Virus record (IMG/VR): IMGVR_UViG_3300032307_000134
Location: 1 to 31,807 of that record
From: a virus
Strand: one strand, 5' to 3'
Length of the DNA stretch: 31,807 nucleotides
The stretch's first letter is position 1. Each line of letters opens with the position of its first letter. The notes beneath the pieces are model-generated. The model was not told the DNA's origin and searched no databases. It worked only from the letters and a program-made list of their open reading frames with translations. Of this stretch, positions 2,376-8,460 are shown piece by piece. The position numbers and the translations under genes were made by a program.

Positions 2376-2621
2376 ATGGCAATCAAAGTAACGTTGGGCG
2401 CAACTGAAAATACGCAGCAAAAGAAACCGTTTCCGAAGTTGATGAAACAAGTTGACGGCGATATATTAATTTATGTACTAACTCCGCCAAATGAAAAAGG
2501 CGAATGCGCGGTTGTTTATTTGAATAGATATATGGAAAACCCATACAGGAAAACGTTTTTATTAAACGGCGTTTCAAGATACACCGACTACAACGAACCA
2601 ATCACAATTCAAAACCTTTAA
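2376..2621 (+). CDS. Hypothetical protein, 81 aa
   Basis: The product begins MAIKVTLGATENTQQKK and has a beta-rich middle (GDILIYVLTPPNEKGECAVV) and an acidic-aromatic end. No family is recognised. Start context is TTTAAACA-ATG, the dominant leader type in this window. It ends 10 bp before the AAA ATPase start, so the two are probably co-expressed. Confidence 0.65.
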   Translation: MAIKVTLGATENTQQKKPFPKLMKQVDGDILIYVLTPPNEKGECAVVYLNRYMENPYRKTFLLNGVSRYTDYNEPITIQNL

Positions 2622-2631
2622 ACACAAAACA

Positions 2632-3486
2632 ATGCAATTACAGAAAGCAACAAGAAAGAAAGTTAAGTTAAGGCTAGGGTTATCAGCCGTTAGTGGTGGC
2701 GGTAAAACGTATTCTTCTTTATTATTAGCTAAAGGATTGGTAGGCGACTTGTCTAAAGTAGCCGTTATTGATACCGAAAACAATAGCGCATCGCTTTATA
2801 GCCACTTGGGAGATTTCAATACCATTGAATTAACTTCTCCTTACACCCCTGAAAGATACATTCAAGCAATTAAAACTTGCGAGGATGCGGGAATGGAGTG
2901 TATTATTATTGATTCCATTACTCACGAATGGGATGGTAAAGGCGGTATGCTTGAAATACATAGCAGCATGACGGGCAATAGCTTTACCAATTGGAGTAGT
3001 TTAACGCCACGCCACCAAAAGTTTATTGATTCAATATTGCACAGTAAATGCCATGTAATTACTACCGTAAGGCGTAAGCAAGATTATGAGTTAAGCACTA
3101 ACGATAAGGGCAAGATTACGCCTACAAAGGTTGGGTTAAAAGAAGTTACTAGAGAGGGGTTTGAATACGAATTAACGGTTAACTTTAACTTAGATGAAAA
3201 GCATAATTGCACCGCATCTAAAGACCGTACTGGAATGTTTATGGATGCTCCAATATTTAAGATAACCGAAGAAACGGGGCAAATGATACGCAACTGGTGC
3301 GAGAATGGCATTGAACCTGAAAAGCCATTAACCGTTATGGAGTACATTGCTAACATTAATGCAGTAGATGATTATGAAGTACTAAAAGCATTGTACAAGT
3401 CGTTGCCTACCAATACGCAAAAAGACCCTGCAATCATCTTAGCTGTTAATACTAAAAAAGCAGAACTACGTGAAACTACCAAATAA
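2632..3486 (+). CDS. RecA-like AAA ATPase (AAA_24/Sak4-like)
   Basis: The 284-residue protein has a Walker A loop at residues 19-26 (AVSGGGKT), a DTEN motif at 47-50 and a hydrophobic Walker B strand ending in Asp94 (CIIIDS), followed by ITHEWDG. This is the single-domain RecA-core pattern of the phage AAA_24 group, which includes Sak4-type recombination proteins. Such proteins act on single-stranded DNA in phage recombination or recombination-dependent replication, usually with a partner SSB; an SSB-like gene lies 1 kb downstream at 4504. The C-terminal 60 residues look like an appended helical region. A packaging or other ATPase role is less likely given the early location. Confidence 0.75.
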   Translation: MQLQKATRKKVKLRLGLSAVSGGGKTYSSLLLAKGLVGDLSKVAVIDTENNSASLYSHLGDFNTIELTSPYTPERYIQAIKTCEDAGMECIIIDSITHEWDGKGGMLEIHSSMTGNSFTNWSSLTPRHQKFIDSILHSKCHVITTVRRKQDYELSTNDKGKITPTKVGLKEVTREGFEYELTVNFNLDEKHNCTASKDRTGMFMDAPIFKITEETGQMIRNWCENGIEPEKPLTVMEYIANINAVDDYEVLKALYKSLPTNTQKDPAIILAVNTKKAELRETTK

Positions 3487-4315: not shown

Positions 4316-4466
4316 TGCAGCGTGGCGGAATAGTCATGGCGCTGGGATAAAAACTGGGGCCGCAGACTTTGGTAGACGCACGAGGGAGCAACGGTAGTAA
4401 CTCACAACTAGGAGTGATGCTTGAGGGTCGTTACTACAAATGCAGGTTCGAATCCTGCCGCTGCAA
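4316..4466 (+). tRNA. tRNA-like element, 151 nt, atypical middle
   Basis: The ends are those of a tRNA. TGCAGCG (4316-4322) pairs perfectly with CGCTGCA (4459-4465) as a 7-bp acceptor stem, TG follows at positions 8-9, and GCAGG/CCTGC (4442-4446/4454-4458) encloses the invariant-type loop TTCGAAT. A D-stem GCG/CGC is available at 4325-4327 with either 4340-4342 or 4377-4379; the second gives a leucine-tRNA-like GGTAGACGC. The total is about 60-75 nt too long, and no normal anticodon arm is found. Extra helices are AGTC/GACT (4332-4335/4365-4368) and GTAGTAAC/GTTACTAC (4394-4401/4430-4437). It could be a tRNA with an intron or insertions, a tRNA-like decoy, or a decayed tRNA. Amino-acid identity cannot be given. 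Confidence 0.45.
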
Positions 4467-4846: not shown

Positions 4847-5056
4847 ATGAAACACTACACCACAACCCCAACAGAATATTTACGCCGCAAGAATAACCTA
4901 ACGCAAACCACCTACATTAGGCGCAACGGTACTGGATTCTACCTTATCAACGGCGAAGAAATACCCGCCGAAGAATGGGAAGAAGCGAACAAGCTACCGT
5001 TATCTTTGGTATTAGGTAAGGGAAACCCGTCAAAAAAGCAATCATGGCAGTATTAA
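4847..5056 (+). CDS. Hypothetical protein, 69 aa
   Basis: A short product with a basic N-terminal half (PTEYLRRKNNLTQTTYIRR) followed by NGEEIPAEEWEEAN, an acidic helix. No family is recognised. The stop lies 13 bp inside the PP-loop gene, so the two are translationally linked. Its leader TTTTAAC-ATG matches others here. Confidence 0.6.
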   Translation: MKHYTTTPTEYLRRKNNLTQTTYIRRNGTGFYLINGEEIPAEEWEEANKLPLSLVLGKGNPSKKQSWQY

Positions 5057-5838
5057 ATAAATATATTAGTTTTAGCGGCGGCGTAGAATCAACTACCATG
5101 TGCATACTTTACGGTTCAAATGCTAAAGCTATTTGGGCAGACACTGGTTCAGAGCATAAACTAATGTATCAACGGATTGAAAAAGTTGAATCAGAAATAA
5201 GAAAAATACATCCGCGTTTTGAAATAATTAAGTTAAAGGCTGAGGCAAAATACAAGGGAGAAGTTTACGATAATTTAGAAAAGTTAACTATTGCTCAAAA
5301 GTTTATGCCATCAAATCAGGCTAGGTTTTGCACACGCTTGTTTAAAATTGAACCAATAGATAGATATTTAAGCGAACAAGAAGAATGCGAATTGATGATA
5401 GGATTAAATGCGGATGAAGAAAACAGTAGAGTGGGTAATTGGGGATTGCAATCAAACGTTAAATACACATACCCATTAATAGATGATGGGTTGACTAGGG
5501 ATGATTGCGAGGCAATATTAAATGAGCATTGCTTACACCCAAATATGCCCGTCTACATGAGTAGAGGCGGCTGTAGGATGTGCTTCTTTAAAAGTAAAAA
5601 AGAGTATAAAGCAATGTATTTTTTAGCCAATGATGAATTTAATGAAGTTATGGCGTTTGAAAATGCTATTCAAGATAAAAGGCAAAAGTTTTATTCTATT
5701 ATGGGCAACGGCATATCTTTAGAACAATTATCAATAGAATGCGAGAGAGAGCGTTCTTTTATGGGTAGTAACGATTGGAAAGAATTATATAAATCACTTA
5801 AAAAAGAAACGTCTTGTGGTGCGTTTTGCCACAGATAA
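5044..5838 (+). CDS. PP-loop ATP pyrophosphatase, PAPS-reductase-like
   Basis: The 264-residue protein has the PP-loop SGGVES at residues 11-16 right after the first strand, then WADTGSEH, the usual second-strand motif of the adenine-nucleotide alpha-hydrolase fold. A Cys pair C177-x-x-C180 (RGGCRMC) and further cysteines (FCTRL, SCGAFC) suggest metal or Fe-S binding. Phage proteins of this type are usually labelled PAPS reductase, but lack of the reductase signature and the early location fit a nucleic-acid or nucleotide modification enzyme better. A DndC-like or QueC-like chemistry is possible; the substrate is unknown. Confidence 0.75.
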   Translation: MAVLNKYISFSGGVESTTMCILYGSNAKAIWADTGSEHKLMYQRIEKVESEIRKIHPRFEIIKLKAEAKYKGEVYDNLEKLTIAQKFMPSNQARFCTRLFKIEPIDRYLSEQEECELMIGLNADEENSRVGNWGLQSNVKYTYPLIDDGLTRDDCEAILNEHCLHPNMPVYMSRGGCRMCFFKSKKEYKAMYFLANDEFNEVMAFENAIQDKRQKFYSIMGNGISLEQLSIECERERSFMGSNDWKELYKSLKKETSCGAFCHR

Positions 5839-6672: not shown

Positions 6673-6834
6673 ATGAATCAAAACAAACCCCTCCGCGCCT
6701 GGCGATTATTACAGCGCATCAATCCGATGATACGCAAAGTTGATAAGCGTATTTACAAGTATGGCCTGATTAAAGACATAAAGCGGTTGGATGATTTGTT
6801 TAAAAGGAGAGAGATAATCAGAAAATTTTTGTAG
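6673..6834 (+). CDS. Small basic protein, 53 aa
   Basis: The frame starts MNQNKPLRAWRLLQRINPMI and continues with RKVDKRIYKY and DIKRLDDLFKRRE to a TAG at 6832-6834. About a third of its residues are Lys or Arg and it is likely all helical, suggesting nucleic-acid binding; no family is recognised. It starts 14 bp after the DnaA-like copy B. Its stop codon lies within the TAGATTTG promoter box of the next transcription unit. Confidence 0.55.
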   Translation: MNQNKPLRAWRLLQRINPMIRKVDKRIYKYGLIKDIKRLDDLFKRREIIRKFL

Positions 6835-6839
6835 ATTTG
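6832..6839 (+). promoter_or_regulatory. Promoter -7 box TAGATTTG
   Basis: TAGATTTG matches TAnnTTTG exactly. No good -33 TTTG lies 19-21 bp upstream. With the usual short distance to the start site, transcription would begin at or near the first hairpin (6845). It would therefore drive the structured RNA candidate and, by read-through, the helicase gene at 6934. Confidence 0.5.
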
Positions 6840-6844
6840 TAACC

Positions 6845-6928
6845 GATGCGTAGCGGCATCATTAGAAACTTTTTGACCCCAAAGAATTGGAGTGCGCCCG
6901 CTACCGCCTCTAATTCCGAGGGGTTTTT
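6845..6928 (+). ncRNA. Structured small RNA or leader with two complementary loops
   Basis: Hairpin 1: GATGC (6845-6849) and GCATC (6856-6860) close the hexaloop GTAGCG (6850-6855). Hairpin 2: CCCC (6877-6880)/GGGG (6920-6923), a 3x3 internal loop, then a 9-bp helix 6884-6892/6908-6916, closing a 15-nt loop that contains CGCTAC (6899-6904). TTTTT follows at 6924-6928. The two loops are exactly complementary over 6 bases, so a kissing-loop fold is possible. Hairpin 2 with its T-tract looks like an intrinsic terminator. The element sits between a TAnnTTTG box and the helicase ATG, 5 bp after the T-tract. It may be a free RNA of about 84 nt or a leader controlling read-through. It does not match any RNA family I know. 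Confidence 0.5.
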
Positions 6929-6933
6929 AAATT

Positions 6934-8460
6934 ATGGTTTTAAGAGAATACCAACAAAAATTGACACATAATTTAGCCGTCAAATTATCGCAAGGTAAAC
7001 GAAAGATTATTGCGCAACTTGCAACTGGCGGCGGCAAAACAATTTCCTTTTCTGCCATTGCTAAAAGATTTACGGACAAATCAAAAAAGTCTGTATTGAT
7101 TTTAGTACATAGAAAAGAACTACTGCAGCAAACAAGGCGAACACTTTACAAGGCTTACCAATTAGATTGTCAAATTATTATTGCAGGAATGAAGCACGTT
7201 CCTTCTGCAGATGTTTACGTTGGTATGGTTGAAACGGTTAACCGTAGAATTGACAGACTGCATAACGTAGGGTTGGTAATTATTGACGAATGTCATATTG
7301 CTAATTTTAACAAAATACACGAACATTTTAAAGATGCTTTTTTTATTGGATTTACCGCTACTCCTTTGGCAGCATCAAAAGAAAAGCCCTTAAATCAATT
7401 TTATGATGATATTGTATGCGGAATAGATATACCCGAACTTATCCAAATGGGTAGCCTTTGCCCTAACCAAACATTTGCCGCAAGGGATAGCGTAGATCGT
7501 TCTTCATTGAAAATGAAAGGCGGCGATTTTGATAGCGGGTTAATGGGTATTGAATTTAGCAAACAACAACATGTTAATAATACTGTTAAAATTTACAAAG
7601 AGAAAGCAGACGGAACAAAGGCAATAGTATTTAATTCAACAGTTGAACACTCTTTAAAAGTTGCAGAGGCTTTTATTGCTGCAGGTTACAACTGCATACA
7701 CTTTGATGGCATGACAGAATCAAAAGAAAGAGCGCAAGTTTTAGAATGGTTTGAGAGAACTGCAGGGGCAATCCTTTGCAACGTTGGTATAGCTACAACG
7801 GGTTTTGATGAACCGACTATTGAAACGGTTATTGTTAATCGTTCTACTATGTCAATGCCTTTATGGCTACAAATGACTGGCAGGGGCAGCAGACGGACAG
7901 ACTATAAAAAAATGTTTACTATAATTGATATGGGTGGCAATGCTATTACGCATGGGGATTGGTGCGATACAAGGGATTGGGAGCAAATATTTAGAAACCC
8001 TCCAAAGAAAGGCAAAGAGGGCGTTGCCCCTGCAAAGAATTGCCCCGAATGCGATAGCATACTTTCTGCATCTGCAACTACTTGCAAGTTTTGTGGTTTT
8101 ATATTTCCGCCACCAAAGCAAAAAGTTGAAGAAGAATTAGGGGAATTTATCCTATTTACTAAAAATATGGATGTGCTAAAAATGATTGAACACGCGAAGT
8201 TGCAAGGGCATAAAGAATATGCTTCATTTTTTGCAATAGCGAACCAGGCGGCGCAGGAACTTAAATACACAAAAACAAAATTAACCGAAGAAAGGTTTAA
8301 TTTTAGCCTCCAACTAATTTACGACAAAGCTAAAGAATGGTGCAGAAATGCGCCAACAGAAAAGGCGAAACGCTTAGATGAATGGCACAAACAAACAATT
8401 AAAAAAACTTTTATAACTGAACTTCAAAAACTATACCCAACATGGCAACCACCTCAATAA
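6934..8460 (+). CDS. Superfamily 2 DEAD/DEAH-type helicase with zinc ribbon
   Basis: The 508-residue protein has the SF2 motif set: an N-terminal LREYQQ Q-motif-like start, Walker A TGGGKT (31-36), LVHRKELLQQT (motif Ia), DECH (118-121), FTATP (140-144), an ATTGFDEP motif, and a C-terminal RecA lobe ending QMTGRGSRR (motif VI). A treble-clef-type zinc site follows, C370-x2-C373-x10-C384-x2-C387, then a helical tail. This resembles phage UvsW/RadD-like helicases that unwind branched or duplex DNA in replication or recombination. It overlaps the primase gene by 19 bp, so the two are coupled. Codon use and leader (TTTTTAAATT-ATG) are like the neighbours. Confidence 0.9.
   Translation: MVLREYQQKLTHNLAVKLSQGKRKIIAQLATGGGKTISFSAIAKRFTDKSKKSVLILVHRKELLQQTRRTLYKAYQLDCQIIIAGMKHVPSADVYVGMVETVNRRIDRLHNVGLVIIDECHIANFNKIHEHFKDAFFIGFTATPLAASKEKPLNQFYDDIVCGIDIPELIQMGSLCPNQTFAARDSVDRSSLKMKGGDFDSGLMGIEFSKQQHVNNTVKIYKEKADGTKAIVFNSTVEHSLKVAEAFIAAGYNCIHFDGMTESKERAQVLEWFERTAGAILCNVGIATTGFDEPTIETVIVNRSTMSMPLWLQMTGRGSRRTDYKKMFTIIDMGGNAITHGDWCDTRDWEQIFRNPPKKGKEGVAPAKNCPECDSILSASATTCKFCGFIFPPPKQKVEEELGEFILFTKNMDVLKMIEHAKLQGHKEYASFFAIANQAAQELKYTKTKLTEERFNFSLQLIYDKAKEWCRNAPTEKAKRLDEWHKQTIKKTFITELQKLYPTWQPPQ

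Follow-up and report, generated by a model that had tools for sequence, protein, structure and literature searches.

The window, that is, the whole stretch of DNA analysed here, is a single strand of 31,807 nt of IMG/VR virus record IMGVR_UViG_3300032307_000134 and belongs to a Bacteroidota phage. Its replication genes include those for AAA, DnaA-C-like, SF2 helicase and VapE primase proteins. The SF2 helicase gene (ResIII and Helicase_C; 508 aa) is found at 6934–8460 on the plus strand, with its ATG at 6934, and is directly preceded on the same strand by a compact element at 6832–6933.

TAnnTTTG is a promoter type of the Bacteroidota, and the element opens with such a box (TAGATTTG, 6832–6839), whose TAG doubles as the stop codon of an ORF at 6673–6834. 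Boxes of this form are not enriched across the whole window (33 seen and 46 expected), and the weight of this box comes solely from its conserved position within the element. Judged from the box position, transcription would start within 6840–6846. The first hairpin, P1 (6845–6860), is evident in both sequence and fold and consists of a 5-bp stem, GATGC (6845–6849) with GCATC (6856–6860), and a 6-nt loop, GTAGCG (6850–6855). An A/T-rich linker (6861–6874) leads to a terminator-type hairpin (6875–6925), in which the outer stem P2 (6875–6880/6920–6925) and an internal loop enclose the inner stem P3 (6884–6896/6905–6916). The apical loop of this hairpin (6897–6904) is CCCGCTAC and contains the word CCGCTAC (6898–6904), of which CGCTAC is at 6899–6904. 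This word is complementary to the first kissing word, GTAGCG in the P1 loop with G6856 as an optional seventh nucleotide (6850–6856). On its 3′ side the hairpin runs through GGGG TTTTT (6920–6928), which ends in a U-tract of five T (6924–6928). The predicted minimum free energy of the element is −32.5 kcal/mol (z = −3.4; 1 of 200 shuffles as good), and both kissing loops are wholly unpaired in the secondary-structure ensemble and thus free to pair with each other.

On direct reading, the promoter box, the two hairpins, the complementary loops and the T-tract before the helicase ATG, all of which had been pointed out in the initial annotation, are exact to the base. The terminator-like character that it gave to the second hairpin is borne out by a stem followed by a U-tract that is conserved in relatives, but the hairpin is longer than had been described, as it comprises both P2 and P3.

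Loop complementarity and covariation in relatives

A helicase-protein search of IMG/VR defined a near clade of helicases, for which the 100–120 nt before the ATG were inspected. These leaders possess the same anatomy with other sequences, and their loops are still complementary. The kissing words are GTAGCGG/CCGCTAC in the window, GGTAGAAGC/GCTTCTACC in L001 and L134, GTTGCAGC/GCTGCAAC in L054, L056 and L136, GGTGGAATC/GATTCCACC in L058, GTGAGAAC/GTTCTCAC in L059, GTCGCAG/CTGCGAC in L060, CCGACA/TGTCGG in L139 and GTGAGAGA/TCTCTCAC in L141, while the loops of L137 pair imperfectly. In twelve helicase leaders picked by gene position and recognisable anatomy, with complementarity not being a criterion, the longest complement between a leader's own loops averages 7.75 nt, compared with 5.48 nt for swapped and 5.23 nt for shuffled loops, and the observed sum of own complements was reached by 0 of 100,000 permutations. 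The complementarity seen in the window is therefore not a coincidence.

The element is absent from L061 and a few others of similar identity, from the front of the helicases of the more distant clade (L002–L005 and L062 onward) and from the front of the Cellulophaga, Nonlabens, Pippivirus (lotta8-2) and FPSV helicases. Nor was it found in phiST, phi14:2, phi19:1 and FPSV-S1, the scanned part being the first 50 kb for the three Cellulophaga phages among them. A DNA similarity search with the window RNA returned zero phage records.

Covariation was examined in sets chosen in different ways. The RNAs of the mumin, hemulen and morran phages differ little, yet their kissing words are GTGGAACG, GTGAGACG and GTGAGAAG, and their partner words are CGTTCCAC, CGTCTCAC and CTTCTCAC, respectively. 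All 29 pairs of this set are kept (100% paired), and six show double-sided changes, three of which are in the kissing helix. In L326, L318 and L053, where the element precedes unrelated genes, 9 of 21 pairs are changed on both sides with 100% pairing (0 of 500 shuffles), and L281 and L291, which share the same primase gene downstream, have GAGCAAG/CTTGCTC and GAGTAAG/CTTACTC, respectively. Independently of these sets, IMG/VR was searched for the terminator of a single subfamily, with the loop and all upstream sequence unconstrained. In the resulting 34 distinct sequences, pairing reaches 98.7% over the predicted helices (P1, kissing helix, P2 and P3), versus 29–44% for controls in which the partner was slid, and double-sided changes occur in 10 pairs and 71 cells (0 of 500 shuffles). 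Both P3 pairs closing the kissing loop are formed in 34 of 34 sequences and occur as AU/GC and GC/UA/AU/CG, which indicates that the terminator stem and the kissing helix are maintained together. Relatedness is ignored by the shuffle controls, but the slid controls and the small sets of near-identical RNAs give a concordant result.

All helices, including the kissing helix, thus covary, and pairing is strongly supported by sequence comparison. Complementary loops with double-sided changes, as expected of a kissing-loop RNA, are present, and such changes in every helix of the relatives indicate that the loop-loop pairing and both hairpins are under selection, as had been claimed. The initial annotation had staked its reading on covariation across relatives, which is found in loops and helices alike. 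Covariation is evidence of pairing and not of an effect on termination, and it fits pairing within a molecule as well as between molecules.

Distribution of the class and the genes behind it

The class as a whole is beyond alignment with MAFFT, and in place of a covariance model a custom descriptor was run on 272 viral loci (2.85 Mb); it combines the box, P1, a kissing word of 6 nt or more, the terminator stem and the U-tract. At scores of at least 20 it returned 41 hits versus 0 in reversed and 0 in dinucleotide-shuffled sequences, and at scores of at least 18 it returned 67 versus 4 and 4, both counts including duplicates because some loci overlap. The window copy scores 19.2, where the controls give about 2. 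Since the descriptor demands a kiss, its hits alone cannot prove kissing, and that proof rests on the synteny-chosen leaders, the terminator-chosen subfamily in which the loop was free and the near-identical pairs described above. After removal of duplicates, 41 distinct elements with 32 kissing words are found at scores of at least 18.4. Their medians are 4 nt from box to P1, 5 bp for P1, 9 nt for its loop, 7 bp for the kiss, 24 nt from kissing word to P2 and 83 nt for the whole length; the kissing helix ranges from 6 to 10 bp across the class, and the stem ends 7–46 nt (median 12) before a co-directed ATG. Element counts are lower bounds, as a stricter descriptor missed the third element of Flavobacterium phage snusmum6-2, whose first loop is 14 nt long. 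A first scan of IMG/VR with the loop words had given 41 hits, nearly all of them by chance; only L027 was real, and it was later recovered by the descriptor.

In 0.98 Mb of Bacteroidota chromosomal loci the best descriptor score is 18.4, without a perfect box and with nothing comparable, and the subfamily pattern is found in 0 of 397 Flavobacteriaceae genomes. Rfam 15 gives no relevant match, including to c4 (RF01695), abiF (RF03085) and riboswitches, for the window at gathering scores, and none for the window element and eight member-bearing loci at E-value thresholds. Cultured members of the class are found in Muminvirus and related genera (46 records) and in phage 11b. The cultured virulent phage snusmum6-2 contains three elements, each with a loop pair of its own, which precede a helicase gene, a NUMOD4-HNH endonuclease gene and a small ORF ahead of a second helicase gene. 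Where a phage has several elements, the loops of one element pair over 6–11 nt and those of different elements over 2–4 nt, with one case of 7 nt. Deposited CDS annotation covers some of these RNAs, such as L357 1481–1624 (morran9-1 gp42) and L053 from 718 onward (the start of snusmum6-2 helicase gp033), so that elements are hidden as hypothetical genes or as wrong gene starts.

BLASTP sorts the 40 ORFs downstream of the terminator-chosen subfamily into 17 unrelated groups, including helicases, NUMOD4-HNH and GIY-YIG proteins, N6/N4 methyltransferases, DUF6291 proteins and replication proteins. Elsewhere in the class the element is followed by genes for VapE primases, a helicase-methyltransferase fusion, and HNH and GIY-YIG endonucleases. 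A T-run follows the stem in 33 of 33 members of the subfamily, compared with 34 of 216 ordinary gene starts, and was outside the search pattern. Because its downstream genes are many and unrelated, the element is a portable module rather than a helicase regulator. The special tie to the helicase suggested in the initial annotation does not hold, as the same kind of RNA precedes at least 17 unrelated gene groups, by which helicase-specific control is ruled out.

Two further observations concern the relation of RNA to gene. In L027 a GIY-YIG endonuclease gene (2546–3350, minus strand), just ahead of a primase-like gene, is found behind an RNA nearly identical to that of the window; the RNA is thus kept while the gene differs. 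Before the 17 unrelated groups (L353 33634–33718 and loci L358–L393) the kissing word is CGGGCAGG with little variation, while the word drifts freely elsewhere in the class. This near-constancy could reflect a trans factor or target, a shared factor, recent spread or recombination.

A putative kissing-locked terminator and its alternatives

We consider it probable, from the comparison of sequences, that the element acts in cis as a portable 5′ leader whose intrinsic terminator is stabilised by the kiss, and that the gene behind it is controlled in this way through premature termination. The Bacteroidota-type promoter would start an RNA almost at P1, whose loop would kiss the apical loop of the intrinsic-terminator hairpin shortly before the next start codon. 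Most transcripts would end at the U-tract as compact RNAs of about 85 nt, and a minority would read through and serve as the mRNA of the downstream gene. The kissing pair would lock P1 onto the terminator, which may raise or tune termination, and it may also tune translation initiation by covering the start region. Expression would then be low by default or set by the strength of the kiss, and a signal might alter kissing or termination during infection.

A stable stem and a U-tract, the signature of an intrinsic-terminator leader, are found between promoter and start codon. Since P1 follows the box after about 4 nt and the ATG follows the terminator after a median of 12 nt, the downstream gene could hardly be expressed from this promoter without read-through, and transcription from upstream would meet the same terminator. 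In a classical attenuator, an antiterminator competes with the terminator stem so that only one of the two can form; no such competing stem is found in the fold of the window. The kissing word is inside the terminator loop, so that pairing and terminator can coexist, and P3 is conserved, which favours a kissing-locked terminator over a competing antiterminator; of the two roles initially considered for the loop pairing, holding termination fits better than breaking it.

The same anatomy would suit a trans-acting phage sRNA with its own promoter, compact fold and terminator, for which the downstream gene is incidental and the kiss folds or protects the RNA. The near-constant kissing word of one subfamily before 17 unrelated gene groups is in line with this idea, but a common seed is lacking, given that loop sequences are unconstrained across the class and unlike one another in the copies of a single phage, and a co-directed ATG follows within 7–46 nt (median 12), where expression is hardly possible without read-through. 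We regard an sRNA gene of this kind as unlikely, and the independent small RNA of about 84 nt proposed initially is less likely than a cis leader. The P4 CI RNA and the P1/P7 c4 antisense RNA (Rfam RF01695 for c4) serve lysogenic immunity in trans. The phage element resembles them as a short phage RNA that is encoded in a leader, has segments complementary to one another and lies ahead of replication or antirepressor genes, and, as in P4 CI immunity, P1 c4 or plasmid copy control, a terminated RNA could pair with a like nascent leader and drive its termination. As a word and its complement are present in every RNA, copies could pair mutually; loop specificity diverges between phages, and replication genes are among those that the element precedes. 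However, the element precedes many unrelated genes, homing endonuclease genes among them, has no Rfam match, and shares one word among many phages of one subfamily. Moreover, Muminvirus phages, in which it is found, are reported to be virulent (PMC7077304), and none of the 397 Flavobacteriaceae genomes contains the subfamily pattern, both of which disfavour lysogenic immunity and a temperate element. Such feedback in trans is in our view decidedly improbable.

The short two-hairpin RNA at a promoter of the replication region, which is probably early judging from the neighbouring genes, also recalls HK022 putL and putR, RNAs of about 70 nt with two stem-loops that are made at an early phage promoter, act alone and suppress termination by binding RNA polymerase (PMC9378689). 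By analogy, P1 and the kissed hairpin might bind the polymerase, for put at its zinc-binding domain, and carry it past this and later terminators. HK022 put is, however, not described with its own terminator or a covarying loop-loop helix, whereas the phage element has a predicted terminator with a conserved U-tract as its second hairpin, has a covarying loop-loop helix and, as a class, is without conserved sequence for polymerase contact; we consider a put-like antiterminator very improbable. That the kissing words are merely inverted repeats in DNA, as operators or an origin near promoter and replication genes, is hardly credible given the directional order of box, hairpin, nested hairpin and U-tract, the covariation of all four nested or crossing helices and the 0 hits in reversed DNA at scores of at least 20.

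The leader with a kissing-locked terminator may also be compared with known cis-acting systems. The purine riboswitch is a cis leader with kissing loops, and such riboswitches share with the element the loop-loop contact and the terminator. In contrast to them, the element is without conserved ligand-pocket sequence, its loops and stems change freely, and no common core of aptamer nucleotides is seen among 41 elements with 32 kissing words. The rep attenuators of plasmids such as pT181 and pIP501 depend on an antisense RNA that is counter-transcribed and on stems that exclude each other. They likewise combine a leader terminator of a replication gene with loop-loop pairing, but the two loops of the phage element belong to the same RNA and can coexist with the terminator. 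To the best of our knowledge, a freely covarying loop-loop helix between a 5′-end hairpin and a terminator is known from no attenuator. The closest likeness in layout is to RCd22-abiF (Rfam RF03085), a structured leader RNA of about 100–130 nt in a Clostridioides difficile prophage, for which premature termination that lowers the gene behind it has been shown experimentally and in which promoter, RNA, intrinsic terminator and a gene fed by read-through follow one another (PMC12373285). The conserved motifs of the abiF RNA bind the toxin that it precedes, whereas the phage element precedes varying genes, shows no class-wide conservation of sequence and makes a kiss with the terminator loop; the cognate toxin family that adjoins the RNA in AbiF and type III toxin-antitoxin systems is replaced by 17 unrelated downstream groups.

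The element represents a new, unnamed RNA class of a known general kind, the terminator-bearing leader, and is widespread among phages. A literature search, with most subscription journals outside its reach, found no description of it, and an earlier one is possible. Tentatively, we propose a more specific reading that is possible though short of probable: a phage regulatory RNA class in which a 5′-end hairpin kisses its own terminator loop may be a termination device independent of sequence and gene, put by virulent Bacteroidota phages in front of single early genes to set dose or timing, with loops diversified against cross-talk. Regulation of gene expression in these phages is little explored, and the cultured members (Muminvirus and related genera, and phage 11b) make the effect of kissing loops on intrinsic termination directly testable. 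Its freely exchangeable loops could also make the element useful where a termination element is to be designed.

Other features were observed apart from the element. Upstream of the replication genes, the window contains a free-standing GIY-YIG ORF (1210–1563) and a gene with a PAPS-reductase domain (5044–5838). At 4316–4466 (plus strand) is a tRNA-like sequence (Rfam tRNA, 30.9 bits) with the acceptor TGCAGCG/CGCTGCA, a perfect T arm and a long insertion between the D and T arms, for which ARAGORN makes no call; it may be a tRNA that is split, interrupted by an intron or decayed, or else a tRNA-like RNA. In L065, at about 7420–7510, palindromic units GTTGCAAC/GTTGCAACTT are repeated in a short stretch and are possibly iterons.
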